DNA from: a bacterium
GTDB taxonomy: Bacteria > UBP15 > UBA6099 > DSWB01
Assembly: GCA_020061125.1 (NCBI GenBank)
Contig: JAGUYV010000432.1
Coordinates: forward strand, 1 to 6,350
Length of the DNA stretch: 6,350 nucleotides
Direction: 5' to 3'
In this document: in pieces, positions 1-6,350 of the stretch
Layout: each line of letters starts with the position of its first letter
How positions within the stretch are numbered: position 1 is the first letter of the stretch
The notes under the pieces: generated by a model
Databases searched by the model: none
Seen by the model: the letters and a program-made list of their open reading frames with translations, nothing else
What the model was told of the DNA's origin: nothing
Translations under genes and position numbers: made by a program

Positions 1-1
1 C

Positions 2-1291
2 CTGGCCGTGGACCTGGGCACCACCTCGGTGTGGGTCGCCCTGGTGGACGCGAACACGCGCGCCGTGCTGGCCGAGGCCGGCGACTACAACCAGCAGATT
101 TCCTTCGGCGAAGATGTGATCAGCCGCATCATCTTCTCGGCCAAGGGCGACGGGCTTTCCGAGCTTCAAAAAGCCGCGGCCGGGAGCATCAACAAGCTCA
201 CGCAATCCGTTCTGGACAAGGCGGGCGCAAGCCGCGACGATGTGTCCTTCATCGCGGTCGCGGGCAACACCACCATGACCCAGTTGCTGCTCGGCATAGA
301 CGCGCGCAACATCCGCCTCGCGCCCTACATCCCGGCGGCGAACCAGTTCCCGCCCGTGGAGGCGGCGCAGGCCGGGCTGGACATGCCCCGCGGCGTCATG
401 CTCTATGCCTTCCCCTGCGTGGCAAGCTATGTGGGCGGAGACATCGTGGCGGGCGTGGCCGCCTACGGCCTGCACAAACGCCCCGAGATGACGCTCTACA
501 TGGACATCGGCACCAACGGCGAAATCGTGGTCGGCAACAGCGACTTCATGATGTGCGCCTCGTGCTCGGCCGGCCCGGCCTTCGAGGGCGGCGGCCTCGA
601 GTTCGGCATGCGCGCCACCCTGGGCGCCGTCGAGGGCTTCGCCATCAACCCCGAAAACCTCGACGAACCCATGATCCTCACCATCGGCCGCGCAAAGCCC
701 ATCGGCATCTGCGGCTCCGGCATCATCACCCTGCTGGCCGAACTCATGCAATTCGGCATCCTGCTGCAGAACGGCAAGTTCAACCCCGACGCGCCCACAA
801 AGCGCGTGCGCCAGGGCAAAGACGGAACCCTGGAATATGTGGTGGTCTGGAAAGACGACGCGGGCGTGGACTCGGACATCGTGATCACCGAGCCGGATGT
901 GGACAACCTCGTGCGCGCCAAGGGCGCCATGTTCTCCGGCGCGCACACCCTGGTCGAGCATGTGGGCCTCACCATGGACACCATCGAGCGCGTGGTCATC
1001 ACAGGCTCGTTCGGCAACTTCGTGAACCTGGCCAAGGCCGTGTTCATCGGACTGCTGCCGGACATCCCCGCGGACCGCTTCTTCTACATGCGCAACGGCT
1101 CGCTGGCCGGCGCGCGCCTGGCGTGCGTGGACCGTGCGTTCCTGCGCACATGCGAAGAGGTCTCCCGCATGATGACCCATGTGGAGTTGAGCGAAGCCCC
1201 GGCTTACATGGACAAGTACATGGCCGCCCAGTTCCTGCCGCACACGGACGCCAGCCTGTTCCCGAATGTAATGCAAGCTCTAAGGAAATAA
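2..1291 (+). CDS. acsV: Corrinoid protein reductive activator (RACo/AcsV-type), C-terminal ASKHA part; 5' end outside window
   Basis: This is the ATP-dependent activator that reduces Co(II) back to Co(I) in the corrinoid iron-sulfur protein, rescuing it from oxidative inactivation. The frame is open to the left edge (reads Leu-Ala-Val-Asp-Leu-Gly), so the GTG at 8 is an internal Val and not a start. The N-terminal [2Fe-2S] and linker domains expected for the family lie upstream. The roughly 429 visible residues match the size of the C-terminal ASKHA domain. Counting from the codon at 8, landmarks are DLGTTSV (2-8, phosphate loop), GNTTM (86-90), MDIGTNGEI (165-173), CSAGPAFEGG (186-195), GICGSGI (233-239) and ITGSFGNF (331-338). 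It ends 18 nt before the cooC-like gene and shares an operon with acsD, its probable substrate protein. A methyltransferase-associated corrinoid activator of the same fold is the alternative; the acs context argues against it. Confidence 0.88.
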   Translation: MAVDLGTTSVWVALVDANTRAVLAEAGDYNQQISFGEDVISRIIFSAKGDGLSELQKAAAGSINKLTQSVLDKAGASRDDVSFIAVAGNTTMTQLLLGIDARNIRLAPYIPAANQFPPVEAAQAGLDMPRGVMLYAFPCVASYVGGDIVAGVAAYGLHKRPEMTLYMDIGTNGEIVVGNSDFMMCASCSAGPAFEGGGLEFGMRATLGAVEGFAINPENLDEPMILTIGRAKPIGICGSGIITLLAELMQFGILLQNGKFNPDAPTKRVRQGKDGTLEYVVVWKDDAGVDSDIVITEPDVDNLVRAKGAMFSGAHTLVEHVGLTMDTIERVVITGSFGNFVNLAKAVFIGLLPDIPADRFFYMRNGSLAGARLACVDRAFLRTCEEVSRMMTHVELSEAPAYMDKYMAAQFLPHTDASLFPNVMQALRK

Positions 1292-1309
1292 AGGAAAGAG
1301 ATTCGCATA

Positions 1310-2101
1310 ATGAGCAGCAAACCCAAAGCCATCGCCGTCGCCGGCAAAGGCGGCACCGGAAAAACCACCACCACGGCCCTGATTATCCGGCAGTTGCTTA
1401 AACGCAACTTCGGGCCTGTCCTGGCCGTGGACGCCGACGCCAACGACAACCTCGGCGCCTCCCTCGGCGTCAAGGACTACAAGACCATCAGCGGCGTGCT
1501 CTCCAGTTTCATGGATGCACGCAAAACCATGCCCGAGGGCATGACCAAGGAAGCGTGGATGGACTACCAGCTCAACTCCGCGCTCGAAGAGACCAAAAAC
1601 TTCGACCTCGTGGTCATGGGCCGCAAGGAAGGCGAAGGCTGCTACTGCTATCCCAATTCCATGCTCCGCAATTTCCTCGAAAATCTGCGCGAGAACTACA
1701 GGTTCATCGTGCTGGACAACGAGGCCGGCCTGGAGCACTTGAGCCGCGGCACCACGGACCATGTGGACATGCTGCTCGTGGTCAGCGACCACGCGTTCAA
1801 GGGCCTGCGCACCGCGGCCACCATCGGCGGCCTCATCAAGGATCTGAACCTGGATGTGCGCAGCGTGGGCCTGGTCATCAACCGGTTCATCCCGGACATG
1901 GAAAAGGAGCTGGAGCCGCTCGTACAGGCCTCGGGCATGCCCGTCATCGGAACCATTCCGCAGGACGCGCTTGTGCAGAAAGCCGACGCGCGCATGGCCT
2001 CCATGCTCGAACTGCCCGACGATTCCGCCGCGGTCCAGGCCGTGGAGGACATCGTGGCGCGGACCCTGGACATCATCGGCGAGCAGTCAAAAGCGTCGTG
2101 A
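1310..2101 (+). CDS. cooC: CooC/AcsF-type nickel-insertion ATPase for CO dehydrogenase/acetyl-CoA synthase maturation
   Basis: This is a 263-residue P-loop ATPase of the MinD/SIMIBI type, which dimerises and couples ATP to nickel loading of CODH (CooC) or ACS (AcsF). Visible motifs are the deviant Walker A GKGGTGKT (12-19) with signature Lys13, the switch I-like DADANDNL (41-48), the family-defining Cys-X-Cys metal site (Cys111, Cys113 in EGCYCYPN), a switch II-like segment DNEAGLEHLSRG (136-147), and VGLVINR (186-192), which carries the base-binding Asn. Length matches the family (about 250-265). The ATG at 1310 follows a purine-rich AAGGAAAGAG at 1291-1300 and overlaps nothing, 18 nt after the acsV stop. 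The sequence cannot separate the CooC role from the AcsF role. The acs neighbourhood leaves AcsF equally possible, so the symbol is provisional. Confidence 0.88.
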   Translation: MSSKPKAIAVAGKGGTGKTTTTALIIRQLLKRNFGPVLAVDADANDNLGASLGVKDYKTISGVLSSFMDARKTMPEGMTKEAWMDYQLNSALEETKNFDLVVMGRKEGEGCYCYPNSMLRNFLENLRENYRFIVLDNEAGLEHLSRGTTDHVDMLLVVSDHAFKGLRTAATIGGLIKDLNLDVRSVGLVINRFIPDMEKELEPLVQASGMPVIGTIPQDALVQKADARMASMLELPDDSAAVQAVEDIVARTLDIIGEQSKAS

Positions 2102-2231
2102 CGCGTCCGGACCTTTTGAAAGGTGTTGGAAATCTCAAAAACCAGCAGCACGCCCGGCGCGGGACCGGCTCACCTGGGACCGCATCCGGGCCTGGCATAA
2201 AACACATTGCCAACAGGGAGGATTTCTCACA
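2102..2231 (+). other. 130-nt intergenic spacer between cooC and the small ORF
   Basis: There is no credible ORF here. It carries only weak structure: a 5-bp hairpin (ACCTT/AAGGT, 2111-2124), a spaced inverted repeat CCCGG (2153-2157)/CCGGG (2186-2190), and a tandem-like repeat of GGGACCG at 2161-2167 and 2177-2183. No T tract follows any stem, so no terminator is called. Transcription from cooC probably continues through it. Confidence 0.4.
2216..2222 (+). promoter_or_regulatory. Shine-Dalgarno sequence of the 68-residue ORF
   Basis: GGGAGGA ends 9 nt before the ATG at 2232. This near-consensus ribosome binding site is the main evidence that the short ORF is translated and that 2232 is its start, because its frame is open well upstream within the cooC 3' end. 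Confidence 0.75.
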
Positions 2232-2438
2232 ATGGAGAAAATCAAGAAGAAACTGTTCGACGGAAGCGACATCGAAATTCTCGGCCCCACCTACGAACCC
2301 GGCAAGCCCGAGGGCAAGGGTGAGTGGAAGAACAAGATGCAGGACCGCAACGAGTACATCAAGTATCTGAAGCAGGCGGAACGCTACTGGTACAACAGCG
2401 ACTGGTTCGGCAGCGAAAAGCGCAAGAACCCCGCGTGA
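2232..2438 (+). CDS. Unrecognised 68-residue charged, aromatic-rich protein inside the acs operon
   Basis: I do not recognise this protein. It is 68 residues, with 12 Lys and 3 Arg against 12 Asp/Glu. It has 10 aromatic residues, clustered near the end (RYWYNSDWF, 51-59). It has no Cys, no signal peptide and no membrane segment, so it is probably soluble and cytoplasmic and unlikely to bind an Fe-S cluster by itself. A basic start (KIKKK, 3-7), a Gly/Pro/Lys middle (22-30) and a predicted amphipathic helix (about 36-52) can be seen. It has a strong ribosome binding site and the same C-ending codon style as its neighbours. It lies between a CODH/ACS maturation ATPase and acsD, with 58 nt to the acsD start. 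That position suggests a role with the corrinoid protein or CODH/ACS (assembly factor or small subunit), which is inference only. A non-conserved ORF is the alternative. Confidence 0.72.
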   Translation: MEKIKKKLFDGSDIEILGPTYEPGKPEGKGEWKNKMQDRNEYIKYLKQAERYWYNSDWFGSEKRKNPA

Positions 2439-2481
2439 GGACCGGCCCGCGCGCCGATCCGCCCGCGTTCCATACACTAAC

Positions 2482-2490
2482 AGGGGGTGA
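2482..2490 (+). promoter_or_regulatory. Shine-Dalgarno sequence supporting the TTG start of acsD
   Basis: AGGGGGTGA is complementary to the 16S 3' end over most of its length and ends 6 nt before TTG at 2497. No ATG or GTG start in the acsD frame is better placed. The site therefore decides the rare start codon. Confidence 0.75.
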
Positions 2491-2496
2491 AGTTCA

Positions 2497-3432
2497 TTGG
2501 CATTTGAAGTGCAAAAAACCAGCTACTCCGGCAGCATCAGGGAAATGACGCTGGGCGGCGCCAAGACTCTCAAGGTCGGCGGCGAAACCGCTTATCCGTT
2601 CTATTCCTTCGAGGGCGCCATGCCCAACCTGCCCAAAATCGCCATGGAAGTTCTGGACAGCGAGCCAGAGGAATGGGCCGCCGCGGCCCTCGAACCCTTC
2701 AAGGATGTCGTGTCCGACCCCGTGGCCTGGGCCAAGAAGTGCGTCAACGATTACGGCGCGGAAATGATCTGCCTCAACATGGTCAGCACCGACCCCAACG
2801 GCATGAACCGCAGCGCCGCGGACGCGGCCGCCGTGGCCAAGTCCGTTGTGGACGCCGTGGATGTGCCCGTGATCGTGTTCGGCACGCTCAACGCCGACAA
2901 AGACACCGAACTGCTCAAGCTCGTGGCCGAGCAGAACGAGGGCAAGAACATCATCATCGGCCCCGTGCAGGAGTCCAACCACAAGCAGGTGGGCGCGCCC
3001 GCCATCGGCTACAAGCACACGGTCGTCGCCAACACGCCCATTGATGTAAACCTGGCCAAGCAGCTCAACATCCTGCTCGGCAACCTCGGCGTGCCCGACG
3101 ACAAAATCCTGGTTGACCCCACCGTGGGCGGCATCGGATACGGCCTCGAGTACACTTACTCGGTCATGGAGCGCGACCGCATGGCCGCTCTGGTCCAGCA
3201 GGACGACAAGCTGCAGAACCCCATCTTCTGCTTCGTGTCCAAGGAAGTCTGGAAGACCAAGGAAGCCAAGATGGGCGCCGACGATCCCACCATGGGTGAC
3301 CCGGCCAAGCGCGGCGTGCTCATGGAAGCCATGACCGCCGCCACCCTGCTTCTGGCCGGCGCCAATGTGCTCGTCATGCGCCATCCCGAAGCCATCAAGC
3401 TCGCCAAGGCCCTCATGGCCGAACTGGCTTGA
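2497..3432 (+). CDS. acsD: Corrinoid iron-sulfur protein small subunit / acetyl-CoA decarbonylase-synthase complex delta subunit
   Basis: This is the small subunit of the corrinoid iron-sulfur protein (AcsCD; archaeal CdhD). With AcsC it accepts the methyl group from methyl-THF on cobalt and passes it to the A-cluster of acetyl-CoA synthase. The 311 residues fit the usual bacterial size (about 305-320) and the TIM-barrel CdhD family. Recognisable segments are FEGAMPNLPKIA (38-49), ICLNMVSTDPNG (91-102), VIVFGT (125-130), IIIGPVQESNHK (152-163), DPTVGGIGYGLEYT (207-220) and the C-terminal VLVMRHPEAIK (291-301). The start is TTG at 2497, chosen from the ribosome binding site and the typical N-terminus. 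The large subunit acsC, usually adjacent, is not in the window and presumably lies upstream. A 219-nt structured gap separates it from folD. Confidence 0.93.
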   Translation: MAFEVQKTSYSGSIREMTLGGAKTLKVGGETAYPFYSFEGAMPNLPKIAMEVLDSEPEEWAAAALEPFKDVVSDPVAWAKKCVNDYGAEMICLNMVSTDPNGMNRSAADAAAVAKSVVDAVDVPVIVFGTLNADKDTELLKLVAEQNEGKNIIIGPVQESNHKQVGAPAIGYKHTVVANTPIDVNLAKQLNILLGNLGVPDDKILVDPTVGGIGYGLEYTYSVMERDRMAALVQQDDKLQNPIFCFVSKEVWKTKEAKMGADDPTMGDPAKRGVLMEAMTAATLLLAGANVLVMRHPEAIKLAKALMAELA

Positions 3433-3453
3433 TCGCGCAGTAACACCACAGGA

Positions 3454-3507
3454 CCAAACAGCCGCGGCGGTGAAGCCTGCGCTTCACCGCCGGGACTTCC
3501 TGTTTGG
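3454..3507 (+). promoter_or_regulatory. Large two-tier hairpin in the acsD-folD gap
   Basis: The inner stem is 12 perfect pairs (3465-3476 with 3481-3492) closing a CTGC loop. The outer stem is 8 perfect pairs (3454-3461, CCAAACAG, with 3500-3507, CTGTTTGG). The two are separated by an asymmetric internal loop of 3 and 7 nt. It starts 21 nt after the acsD stop. No T run follows the outer stem, so it is not a canonical intrinsic terminator. An mRNA 3'-end stabiliser, an RNase processing site or a partial attenuator between acsD and folD are the reasonable readings. Confidence 0.65.
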
Positions 3508-3564
3508 CGGCGCATGCAATCGGAAATCCTCCAAACGCACGGGGGGGGAATCCGCAATCCGCTC

Positions 3565-3586
3565 GCGGCGCGGCAACGCGCGCCGC
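3565..3586 (+). repeat. GC-rich hairpin upstream of folD
   Basis: GCGGCGCG (3565-3572) pairs perfectly with CGCGCCGC (3579-3586) around a 6-nt loop. It lies 65 nt before the folD start, just upstream of an AT-rich stretch. The distance to the T run at 3600-3604 is too long for a standard terminator. It overlaps one copy of the direct repeat that flanks folD. Confidence 0.45.
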
Positions 3587-3595
3587 ATGGCTCTG

Positions 3596-3629
3596 GTGAT
3601 TTTTGCATCACGCTTGAACAATATTAAAT
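3596..3629 (+). promoter_or_regulatory. AT-rich leader with a GTGAT-N6-ATCAC dyad; possible folD operator/promoter
   Basis: A perfect 5+6+5 dyad (GTGAT 3596-3600, ATCAC 3607-3611) is followed by an abrupt AT-rich run, AATATTAAAT (3620-3629). Within this, TTTGCA (3602-3607) and TTAAAT (3624-3629) are a weak -35/-10 pair with a 16-nt spacer, each 4 of 6 to the sigma-70 consensus. The dyad spacing differs from the Crp/Fnr-type GTGA-N6-TCAC, so no regulator is named. A hairpin or a chance dyad is possible. Confidence 0.3.
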
Positions 3630-3636
3630 CTCATTT

Positions 3637-3645
3637 GGAGGAGGT
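3637..3645 (+). promoter_or_regulatory. Strong Shine-Dalgarno sequence of folD
   Basis: GGAGGAGGT is essentially full consensus and ends 6 nt before the ATG at 3652. It fixes the folD start and predicts efficient translation. Confidence 0.85.
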
Positions 3646-3651
3646 CCATTC

Positions 3652-4554
3652 ATGGCCGCAAAAATTATTGACGGCAAAGCCATCTCCCAGGCTGTCAAGG
3701 ACGAGGTTACCAAAGGCGTAGCCGAACTCAAGGAAAAGACCGGCGTGCAGGCCGCCCTGGCCGTGGTTCTGGTCGGCGAAGATCCCGCATCCCAGGTGTA
3801 TGTGCGCAACAAGGGCATCGCCTGCGAAAAGTGCGGCATCAAGTCCATCGAGCACAAGCTGCCCGCGGACACCACCCAGGCCGCTCTCAACAAACTGGTC
3901 GAAGATCTCAACAACGACGATTCCGTGCACGGCATCCTCGTGCAGCTTCCCCTGCCCAAGGGTTTGAGCGACGACGAGGTGCTCAACCTCATCAACCCCG
4001 CAAAAGATGTTGACGGCTTCCACCCCATCAATGTGGGCAAGTTCCTCACCATCAAGAAATATGCCGACATCCAGGCGTCCGGCGTGTTCCTGCCCTGCAC
4101 CCCGCACGGCTGCATCGAGCTGCTGGACCGCAGCGGCGTGGACCTCAACGGCGCCAACGCCGTGGTCGTGGGCCGCAGCAACATCGTGGGCAAGCCCGTG
4201 TCCCTGCTCCTCATGAGCAAGAACGCCACCGTGACCATCGCCCACTCCCGCACCAAGGACCTGCCCGGACTGATCAAGTCCGCGGATGTGGTCGTGGCCG
4301 CCATCGGCATGCCCGAATTCGTCAAGGGCGAATGGATTAAGCCCGGCGCAGCCATCATTGATGTGGGCATTAACCGCATGCCCCCCAAGGAAGAGGGCGG
4401 CAAGGACCGGCTCGTGGGCGATGTGGAATACGAAGCCGCGGCAGCCGTGGCCGGCTGCATCACCCCGGTGCCCGGCGGCGTCGGACCCATGACCATCGCC
4501 ATGCTCATGAAGAACACCCTGCAGTCCGCCACGCAGTTCGCCGCCAAGAAATAA
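3652..4554 (+). CDS. folD: Bifunctional methylene-THF dehydrogenase / methenyl-THF cyclohydrolase
   Basis: This cytosolic enzyme interconverts 5,10-methylene-THF, 5,10-methenyl-THF and 10-formyl-THF, usually with NADP(H). In this operon it supplies the methyl branch of the Wood-Ljungdahl pathway. The 300 residues include the catalytic Tyr50 and Lys54 (SQVYVRNKG, 47-55), the substrate-binding Asp121 (KDVDGFHP, 118-125), the QLPLP segment (98-102), the PCTPHG segment (148-153), the dinucleotide loop [12 protein letters not shown] (171-182) and the C-terminal [11 protein letters not shown] (271-281). Numbering of Tyr50, Lys54 and Asp121 matches E. coli FolD. After Lys54 the sequence is Gly-Ile rather than the usual basic pair of NK(R/H)KACE. 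A consensus ribosome binding site and full family length support the ATG. It is the last gene before the terminator. Confidence 0.96.
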
Positions 4555-4595
4555 CTCGCGGCGCAACGCGCAAATTCAAACCGGCAAGCAATCTC

Positions 4596-4630
4596 AAAAG
4601 CCGCGCTCTTTCAAAAGAGCGCGGCTTTTT
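4596..4630 (+). terminator. Strong intrinsic terminator after folD, likely bidirectional
   Basis: An uninterrupted 15-bp stem (4596-4610 with 4615-4629; GC core GCCGCGCTC) with a TCAA tetraloop runs into a T tract at 4626-4630. The matching A run at 4596-4599 means it would also work on the opposite strand. It lies 41 nt after the folD stop and separates the C1 operon from rodA. Confidence 0.92.
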
Positions 4631-4662
4631 GCCGCGGCGCATGTCCCACGCGGGGAAATTCA

Positions 4663-4692
4663 TTCAAATAATGCTCCATGGACATTGATATT
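4663..4692 (+). promoter_or_regulatory. Possible rodA promoter in an AT-rich patch
   Basis: Directly after the terminator, TTCAAA (4663-4668) and GATATT (4687-4692) are each 4 of 6 to the sigma-70 consensus with an 18-nt spacer, in an AT-rich patch (about 4657-4698) unlike its surroundings. A promoter is expected here because the terminator cuts off read-through. The exact boxes are uncertain, and TATTAATA (4689-4696) offers an alternative -10. Confidence 0.35.
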
Positions 4693-4696
4693 AATA

Positions 4697-4725
4697 CTGG
4701 GCGCGGGCTGTGGCGCCGCGCCCGG
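4697..4725 (+). promoter_or_regulatory. GC-rich hairpin in the rodA leader
   Basis: GGGCGCGG (4699-4706) pairs with CCGCGCCC (4716-4723) around a 9-nt loop, extended by one T-G and one C-G pair at the base. It would form at the very 5' end of a transcript from the putative promoter just upstream. A stabilising 5' stem-loop or a regulatory element is possible. No known riboswitch consensus is recognised. Confidence 0.45.
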
Positions 4726-4740
4726 CTGTTGCCTTTGCGC

Positions 4741-4778
4741 AGGGGAGGAGTTTAACGCCGCGCGCAAGCGCGTGCGTT
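4741..4778 (+). promoter_or_regulatory. rodA ribosome binding site followed by a hairpin in the SD-to-start spacer
   Basis: AGGGGAGGAG (4741-4750) is the only good Shine-Dalgarno sequence but lies 26 nt from TTG 4777 and 35 nt from ATG 4786. The intervening sequence folds: AACGC (4754-4758) pairs with GCGTT (4774-4778), T4773 is bulged, and CGCGC (4759-4763) pairs with GCGCG (4768-4772), capped by a GCAA (GNRA-type) tetraloop at 4764-4767. With the hairpin formed, the effective spacing is about 7 nt to TTG 4783 and about 10 nt to ATG 4786. The stem would bury TTG 4777. Confidence 0.55.
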
Positions 4779-4785
4779 GAGATTG

Positions 4786-5898
4786 ATGCTGCCGCGGAAT
4801 TACGCCAGACATCTGGACTGGGGCGTGCTGCTGTGCGCGCTGGGCCTTGCGATCACGGGCCTGGTCTTCATTTACACCATGTCGTGGATCGAGGGCATGA
4901 GGCGGCCGCTGCTGCATTATTTCATCCAGCAGAGTGTGTGGCTGTGCATCGCGGCTGCGGCTGCGTACGGGGTTCTGGCGCTGGATTACAAGCTGTGGAC
5001 GCGGGTCTCGTGGGTTGTGTACCTGGTGAACATCGCGCTGCTGGTCGCGCTGCTGGTGATAGGGCGCAAAACGCACGGCGCGGGAAGCTGGTTCTCGCTG
5101 GGGCTGATGAAGTTTCAGCCAAGTGAAGTGACCAAGATATTTTTCATCATCACATTCGCGCATTTTCTGGCGCGGTATACGCCGGAGCTGAACCGGCCGT
5201 GGGTTCTGGGCATGGCGGTGCTGCAGTTCGCGGTGCCGTTCGGGCTGATTGTGCTGCAGCCGGACATGGGCACGGCGGTGGTGTATGTGGCGATTTTCGC
5301 GGGCATGCTGTTCGTGGCCGGGCTGGACGGCGTTCGCATCGTTATCGCGGGGGCGGTGGCGCTGTCCGCGGCCATTGTGGCTCTGCCTCTGGCGCTCAAG
5401 GGATATCAGATGGAGCGGCTGCTGCAGTTCCTGCACCCCACATCGGACGCGGCGGGCAGCGGATGGCAGTTGCACCAGGCGCATGTGGCCATGGGTTCCG
5501 GCGGGGTGTTCGGCAAGGGGCTTTTCCACGGGAGCCAGGCCGCGCTGGGATTCCTGCCCGCGGCGCACACGGATTTCATCTTCGCGGCCATCGTGGAGCA
5601 GGCCGGCCTTGCGGGCGGGCTGGCTGTGCTGGCCATGTTTCTGATTCTGCTGTACCGCATTCTGCGCATCTCCCTGCGCGCCGAGGACATGTTCGCCACC
5701 TGCATGGGCGCGGGGGTGTTTTCCATGATCGCGTTCCAGGCGGTGATCAACCTGGGCATGACGGTGGGGTTCCTGCCGATCACGGGCATTCCGCTTCCGT
5801 TCGTTTCATACGGCGGCAGTTCGCTCATAACGAGCTTTGCGGCCACGGCCCTGGTGCTGAACATCTCCGTGCGGCGCAAGAAGCTGATGTTTTCATAG
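4786..5898 (+). CDS. rodA: RodA, SEDS-family peptidoglycan glycosyltransferase of the elongation machinery
   Basis: RodA is an inner-membrane enzyme that polymerises lipid II into glycan strands, working with a class B penicillin-binding protein and MreBCD. The ATG at 4786 gives 370 residues, the length of E. coli RodA; TTG at 4777 or 4783 would add 3 or 1. About ten hydrophobic segments can be seen. SEDS landmarks are WFSLGLMKFQPSE (102-114), QPDMGT (158-163), GSGWQLHQ (224-231), MGSGGVFGKG (236-245), HTDFIF (261-266) with Asp263 at the expected catalytic position, INLGM (321-325) and the C-terminal TGIPLPFVSYGGSS (333-346). The flanking acidic residues common in RodA are altered (Pro-Ala-Ala-His and Val-Glu-Gln-Ala). 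FtsW is less likely because the protein is short and lacks a long N-terminal extension. It precedes glmU by 84 nt. Codon use is G-ending (GCG, CTG), unlike the preceding operon. Confidence 0.87.
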   Translation: MLPRNYARHLDWGVLLCALGLAITGLVFIYTMSWIEGMRRPLLHYFIQQSVWLCIAAAAAYGVLALDYKLWTRVSWVVYLVNIALLVALLVIGRKTHGAGSWFSLGLMKFQPSEVTKIFFIITFAHFLARYTPELNRPWVLGMAVLQFAVPFGLIVLQPDMGTAVVYVAIFAGMLFVAGLDGVRIVIAGAVALSAAIVALPLALKGYQMERLLQFLHPTSDAAGSGWQLHQAHVAMGSGGVFGKGLFHGSQAALGFLPAAHTDFIFAAIVEQAGLAGGLAVLAMFLILLYRILRISLRAEDMFATCMGAGVFSMIAFQAVINLGMTVGFLPITGIPLPFVSYGGSSLITSFAATALVLNISVRRKKLMFS

Positions 5899-5937
5899 AC
5901 GCGGCGCGACGCCCGGTGTTCTTTTGGCGGCCGGACA

Positions 5938-5948
5938 ATTATGATAAT
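5938..5948 (+). promoter_or_regulatory. Possible glmU -10 region with a perfect ATTAT-G-ATAAT palindrome
   Basis: TATGAT (5940-5945) and GATAAT (5943-5948) each match 5 of 6 bases of the -10 consensus and sit inside an 11-nt inverted repeat. No convincing -35 lies at 16-18 nt upstream, so an activated promoter or no promoter at all is possible. It would allow glmU to be expressed apart from rodA. Confidence 0.3.
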
Positions 5949-5982
5949 GGGTCAATAGACTGGAGAAAGGCGCGGAGAAAGC

Positions 5983-6350
5983 ATGACACGGGACAATGAG
6001 CTGATCGGAGTGGCCCTGGCGGCCGGAAAAGGCACGCGCATGAGCGGGGATCTGCCCAAGGTGCTGCACACGCTTGCGGGCAAGCCGCTGGTGCTGTATG
6101 TCACGGACCTGATGGCCCGCCTGAACCTGGACCGGCGCATTGTGGTCACGGGCTACCGGCACGAGATGGTGGAAGCGGTTCTGCCCGGTGATGTGGGCGT
6201 GGCGTACCAGGAGCAACAGCTCGGCACGGGCCACGCGGTGCAGTGCGCCGCGCCCCTGTTCCGCGATTCCGCGGGCACCCTGCTGTTGCTTTACGGCGAT
6301 GTGCCGCTTCTGCGCGCGGAGACGCTGCGCGCCATGCTGGACGAACACGC
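5983..6350 (+). CDS. glmU: GlmU, N-terminal uridylyltransferase part; 3' end outside window
   Basis: GlmU is a cytosolic bifunctional enzyme that acetylates glucosamine-1-phosphate and couples GlcNAc-1-phosphate to UTP, giving UDP-GlcNAc for peptidoglycan and lipopolysaccharide. The 122 visible codons cover the start of the N-terminal nucleotidyltransferase (Rossmann-like) domain only; the left-handed beta-helix acetyltransferase domain lies beyond the edge. Motifs are LAAGKGTRM (12-20, nucleotide loop), the LPKVLH segment (24-29), GKPL (33-36), the QLGTGHAV segment (79-86) and YGDVPL (104-109) with the metal-binding Asp. The ATG at 5983 follows GGAG (5974-5977) by 5 nt, with another purine run GGAGAAAGG at 5962-5970. 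It pairs functionally with rodA, since one makes the precursor sugar nucleotide and the other polymerises the wall. A uridylyltransferase lacking the second domain cannot be excluded. Confidence 0.92.
   Translation, partial: MTRDNELIGVALAAGKGTRMSGDLPKVLHTLAGKPLVLYVTDLMARLNLDRRIVVTGYRHEMVEAVLPGDVGVAYQEQQLGTGHAVQCAAPLFRDSAGTLLLLYGDVPLLRAETLRAMLDEH

Follow-up and report, generated by a model that had tools for sequence, protein, structure and literature searches.

Why does a 6,350-nucleotide stretch of bacterial DNA contain no copy of the palindrome ACGT? The stretch, hereafter the window, is the whole of contig C7 of a draft assembly (G000; 4.12 Mb in 513 contigs, 79% complete), and ACGT is absent from it on both strands where 14.9 copies are expected from the trinucleotides under a maximal-order Markov model (Poisson P ~3e-7). 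As the preliminary description of the window had counted, its 95 CGT trinucleotides are preceded by C, G, and T 29, 35, and 31 times and by A never, and ACG is common before A, C, or G (22, 46, and 36 occurrences). Codon choice is bent around the site: ahead of GTN, the Asp, Tyr, His, and Asn codons are GAT (13), TAT (5), CAT (4), and AAT (3) and never NAC, exactly as first described, as compared with 181 NAC to 29 T-ending codons at other positions of the window. Synonymous shuffling of the codons of the window's genes gave 20.7 ± 2.4 ACGT sites, with a minimum of 11 over 2,000 trials, against none in the real sequence. CTAG had also been described as missing and is indeed absent, but only 1.2 copies would be expected in a stretch of this length. 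The genes concerned are listed in Table 1, beginning with that of an AcsV-like protein, a host-gene context whose codons avoid ACGT; the MinD/ParA-type ATPase is probably CooC-like judging from its context, and the truncated last gene is putatively named GlmU-like from a reading of its N-terminus only.

Table 1. Features of the window (contig C7) and of the operon on contig C128
Feature	Position	Strand	Evidence
Whole contig C7, without ACGT on either strand	1..6350	.	14.9 expected
AcsV-like corrinoid activation/regeneration protein, 5' end cut	2..1291	+	NF040756, E 3.5e-147
MinD/ParA-type ATPase adjoining acs genes	1310..2101	+	TIGR01969, E 5.4e-17
Acetyl-CoA decarbonylase/synthase delta subunit (AcsD/CdhD)	2497..3432	+	NF003377, E 2.1e-161, above cut-off
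FolD, methylenetetrahydrofolate dehydrogenase/cyclohydrolase	3652..4554	+	NF010785, E 2.6e-125
RodA/FtsW-type cell-wall protein	4777..5898	+	TIGR02210, E 2.1e-104
Putative GlmU-like nucleotidyltransferase, gene start, cut by contig end	5983..6350	+	Gene call and translation
C5-cytosine methyltransferase (M)	C128, L121:417-1544		PF00145, E 5.7e-42
DUF4928 protein (R), putative endonuclease	C128, L121:1538-2464		PADLOC Type II REase profile, E 1.7e-42
Vsr mismatch endonuclease (V)	C128, L121:2464-2871		TIGR00632, E 3.6e-46, above cut-off

The absence extends well beyond the window. Over 60 contigs (498 kb), 50 ACGT sites were found against 1,137 expected, and the resulting ratio of 0.044 is the lowest among the 256 tetramers, followed by CTAG at 0.19. 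Over 636 kb of the genome the count was 64 against ~2,039, using a self-consistent expectation corrected for the missing sites, which gives a genome-wide observed/expected ratio of ~0.03, far under the 0.78 at or below which a site is considered avoided (PMC4687349). The depletion is thus real and strong, this bacterium having lost ~97% of its ACGT copies. An assembly-wide count restricted to sites with GC-rich flanks gave 39 ACGT compared with 2,641 TGCA, 1,786 TCGA, and 1,333 AGCT. In 446 called genes, the share of NAC among codons for Asp, Tyr, His, and Asn is 0.5-3% ahead of GTN and 77-84% ahead of other G-starting codons. Neither outcome that would have undermined the original observation was thus seen, be it ACGT at its expected frequency outside the window or a preference for T-ending codons ahead of other G-starting codons (16-23%). 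Likewise, ACG makes up only 3 of the 1,061 Thr codons that precede T (0.3%), and after A only 2 of the 580 four-fold Arg codons are CGT (0.3%), as compared with 4-8% after other bases.

Six relatives from the same order carry 0.8 to 2.4 ACGT per TGCA and none is depleted, indicating a lineage-specific loss. The same comparison bears on the simplest explanation, that a general compositional or dinucleotide bias (CpG avoidance, codon usage, or palindrome avoidance) makes ACGT rare. Such a bias might be suspected from the low CTAG ratio and from the existence of some low-GC, CpG-poor genomes that are poor in ACGT, but the undepleted relatives speak against it, as does the abundance of CCGT, GCGT, TCGT, and TCGA and of ACG followed by A, C, or G, which leaves ACGT as the single outlier, and we give it practically no credence.

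The preliminary description had proposed two causes, a restriction-modification (R-M) system or cytosine methylation followed by deamination, and these make different predictions for codons. If C5 methylation of ACGT and subsequent deamination to ATGT or ACAT had removed the sites in the absence of selection, then every Thr ACG codon lost before T should reappear as ACA. Measured against Pro, Ala, and Ser codons, the proportion doing so was only 19% (95% CI 8-27) instead of 100%, a log-likelihood difference of 187; most lost ACG codons became ACC, and the proportion of ACA is also somewhat under the 33% expected where ACG is merely disfavored. In G324, a second ACGT-poor genome considered below, 3 of 107 Thr codons before T are ACA and none is ACG. 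Nor are CAT and TGT raised after A-ending codons (25% vs. 28-29% and 8.5% vs. 9-14%, respectively). Deamination does have points in its favor, namely that a C5 methyltransferase is encoded in the genome, that ATGT occurs 32 times in the window against 18.2 expected, and that the middle base of intergenic A_GT is T in 47% of cases compared with 28% in other contexts, a difference that may reflect a natural bias beside A. The codon results nevertheless reject it as the route of loss, and the Vsr protein encoded in the same genome would counter it, making this explanation highly improbable. We conclude from the Thr codons of two genomes and the lack of a rise in CAT or TGT that selection rather than mutation is the favored cause of the avoidance. 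Taken roughly as an equilibrium, the codon-pair odds suggest a scaled selection of ~5 per site.

The 64 remaining sites are distributed as selection would leave them. Structural RNA genes, 2.9 kb in total, hold twelve of them (16S rRNA six, a 23S fragment two, tRNAs three, and 6S RNA one), a density of 4.1 ACGT per kb, which is undepleted and 73-fold that elsewhere (0.056 per kb; P = 5e-18). A further 17 are in two phage-like contigs at 1.3 per kb, and the remaining 35 are spread over the other 621 kb. One of the two, C8, encodes major head and tail proteins, and the other, C259 (L122), encodes an endolysin and its own N6/N4 DNA methyltransferase and is nearly normal in ACGT content (8 vs. 11.3 expected). 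ACGT therefore persists in sequence that is hard to change or has recently arrived, and the cell still owns ACGT sites that would need protection if an ACGT enzyme is active. The bases flanking the survivors are mixed, giving no pointer to a longer recognition site. A contig with flagellar genes (C51, L071) has 7 ACGT in 18.7 kb against 43.6 expected, more than most contigs of the genome, and was perhaps acquired later.

A search of the genome for methyltransferases, as suggested in the preliminary description, recovered a single C5-cytosine enzyme along with three of the N6/N4 type, whose presence counts against the reading favored below. The C5 enzyme has the catalytic motifs FPCQDLS, ENV, and PQSRKR in its alignment and is the first gene of an overlapping set on contig C128, followed by the DUF4928 gene and then vsr (Table 1). 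The DUF4928 protein matches a Type II restriction endonuclease profile, on which its predicted nuclease activity is based; it has no match to a solved relative in the PDB. Contig C128 is itself purged of ACGT, with 1 site against 12.2 expected, which argues that the operon has long been resident in the genome.

We consider it likely that ACGT has disappeared under prolonged selection against the recognition sequence of a resident Type II R-M system, for which the C128 operon with Vsr is the candidate. The putative endonuclease would occasionally cut host ACGT sites that are not fully methylated, any mutation removing a site would then be slightly favored, and over a long time nearly all copies would be lost, largely by synonymous changes, the exceptions being structural RNA genes, which are hard to change, and newly arrived phage DNA. 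Vsr would repair the T:G mismatches that deamination of 5-methylcytosine produces, in keeping with the lack of a deamination signature.

The proposal that ACGT is the shared target of the C128 methyltransferase and putative endonuclease comes from comparison with other genomes. We set ACGT counts against those of TGCA and TCGA in 386 genomes, seven of which encode DUF4928 proteins. Outside the present genome, a close copy of the operon occurs only in G324, a member of a different family (identities of 62% for M and 64% for both R and V), and this genome is also depleted, with 38 ACGT compared with 954 TGCA and 2,761 TCGA. Its sampled contigs contain 24 ACGT against 245-317 for each other NCGT, and 13 of the 24 are on one contig that is possibly foreign. 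As ~14 of the 386 genomes fall below 0.1 against both controls (read from two tables), the chance of both carriers of the close operon being depleted is ~0.001. This co-occurrence in two unrelated genomes suggests that ACGT is the site of both enzymes, and of the two causes originally proposed, it is R-M that is supported, with an operon of methyltransferase, putative endonuclease, and Vsr in one depleted genome and its close copy in another.

DUF4928 in general is not a marker of ACGT loss, since strong depletion is absent from the five other carriers. The same is true of eleven genomes in which the methyltransferase has diverged relatives (33-44% identity); G200, which has a diverged copy, is partly so (0.24-0.27). 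Conversely, ~11 other unrelated genomes are below 0.1 of both TGCA and TCGA (G228, G158, G073, G088, G358, G019, G103, G113, G249, G325, and G066), the extreme being G228 with 1 ACGT against 465 TGCA and 608 TCGA. The C128 methyltransferase has no close relative in any of these, so ACGT can be lost by other routes, likely through other ACGT enzymes. A congener and sister species of G324, G192, has 14 ACGT compared with 517 TGCA and 233 TCGA, TCGA being also poorly represented relative to AGCT (1,482), and no match to DUF4928 or a C5 methyltransferase was found in it. This would fit a lost system, yet it weakens the link to the operon: the depletion of G192 may predate the operon or be independent of it, or the operon may have been lost, and another ACGT enzyme could be acting in the genus of G324 and G192.

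These genomes raise the alternative that selection by restriction is responsible but that the enzyme was a different one, either lost or encoded in the missing 21% of the genome, where another ACGT enzyme could sit, and that the C128 operon recognizes a different site. Genomes commonly bear traces of R-M systems that have been lost (PMC4687349), and DUF4928 relatives with diverged methyltransferases are not linked to ACGT. With both genomes carrying the close operon depleted, its methyltransferase the only one of C5 type found, and its contig purged of ACGT, we regard a different enzyme as unlikely, if much the strongest of the alternatives. We lean towards a broader reading in which the DUF4928 proteins of the C128/G324 clade would constitute a family of ACGT-specific restriction endonucleases whose self-cutting is so harsh that two unrelated host lineages have each purged ~90-97% of their sites, leaving them mainly in RNA genes and new DNA, and whose specificity may be readable from the host genome alone.

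Restriction-site avoidance is already known in kind, from Gelfand and Koonin (1997) and Rocha et al. (cited in PMC4687349) onwards, and this case is unusually extreme. Sites of orthodox Type II systems were found to be avoided in ~48% of 1,774 site-genome pairs, to a degree that grows with the lifespan of the R-M system (PMC4687349). The present case resembles these in having a palindromic 4-bp site depleted in the host and separate genes for a methyltransferase and a putative endonuclease. The depleted sister species lacking a detectable system is likewise reminiscent of the finding that sites of systems in related species are often avoided, a pattern attributed there to systems since lost (Rusinov et al. 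2015, PMC4687349). In contrast to the threshold used there, which was calculated by Karlin's method, the Markov-type ratio obtained here is ~0.03, with the survivors found chiefly in genes for structural RNAs and in phage DNA. Methanococcus aeolicus has an m5C system, MaeII, whose site is ACGT (PMC10113651). By description rather than by sequence comparison, MaeII resembles the system proposed here as a Type II system with 5-methylcytosine, ACGT being the presumed target in our case. The 5-methylcytosine mark of MaeII is not directly visible to SMRT sequencing (PMC10113651), and because motifs of this kind are easily missed by standard single-molecule methods, site depletion in the host offers a useful way of reading such specificity. 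The genome described here is a very strong example of codons in nearly every gene apparently being shaped by a resident enzyme, provides an internal test of selection against mutation together with informative survivors, and yields a concrete prediction of ACGT specificity for an uncharacterized DUF4928-associated system.

A C5 methyltransferase, DUF4928, and Vsr set has also been noted in SGI1-related elements (PMC9035990), and PLSDB plasmids carry cassettes of the same gene families, in the same order where Vsr is annotated and with an endonuclease 55-57% identical to that of C128. Since such cassettes travel on plasmids, pressure from outside, exerted by phages or mobile elements with an ACGT nuclease, might be considered in place of the cell's own enzyme. 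However, the relatives found on plasmids reach no more than 41% (M) and 57% (R) identity, viral contigs yielded no close relative of either protein, and phages yielded none of R. Moreover, the plasmid copies are not associated with ACGT avoidance, the four plasmids checked, with methyltransferases 38-39% identical to that of C128, having a normal ratio of 0.89-1.14. Outside pressure is accordingly about as implausible as general bias. The cassettes in question (L198-L201) are on small Pseudomonas and Serratia plasmids, with Vsr and a regulator annotated in two of the four, and two of these plasmids bear metallo-beta-lactamase genes (IMP-10 and IMP-63).

Palindrome loss involving ACGT was also observed in two other settings. 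A 13.8 kb stretch of a Dehalococcoidales population genome (L002, JAUXAE010000018.1) avoids two palindromes, with 1 ACGT against 11.7 expected and 8 GATC against 53.7. In G331, two CpG palindromes have been lost in one species, with 206 ACGT and 224 TCGA compared with 3,111 TGCA and 3,724 AGCT, while its congener G058 is normal.
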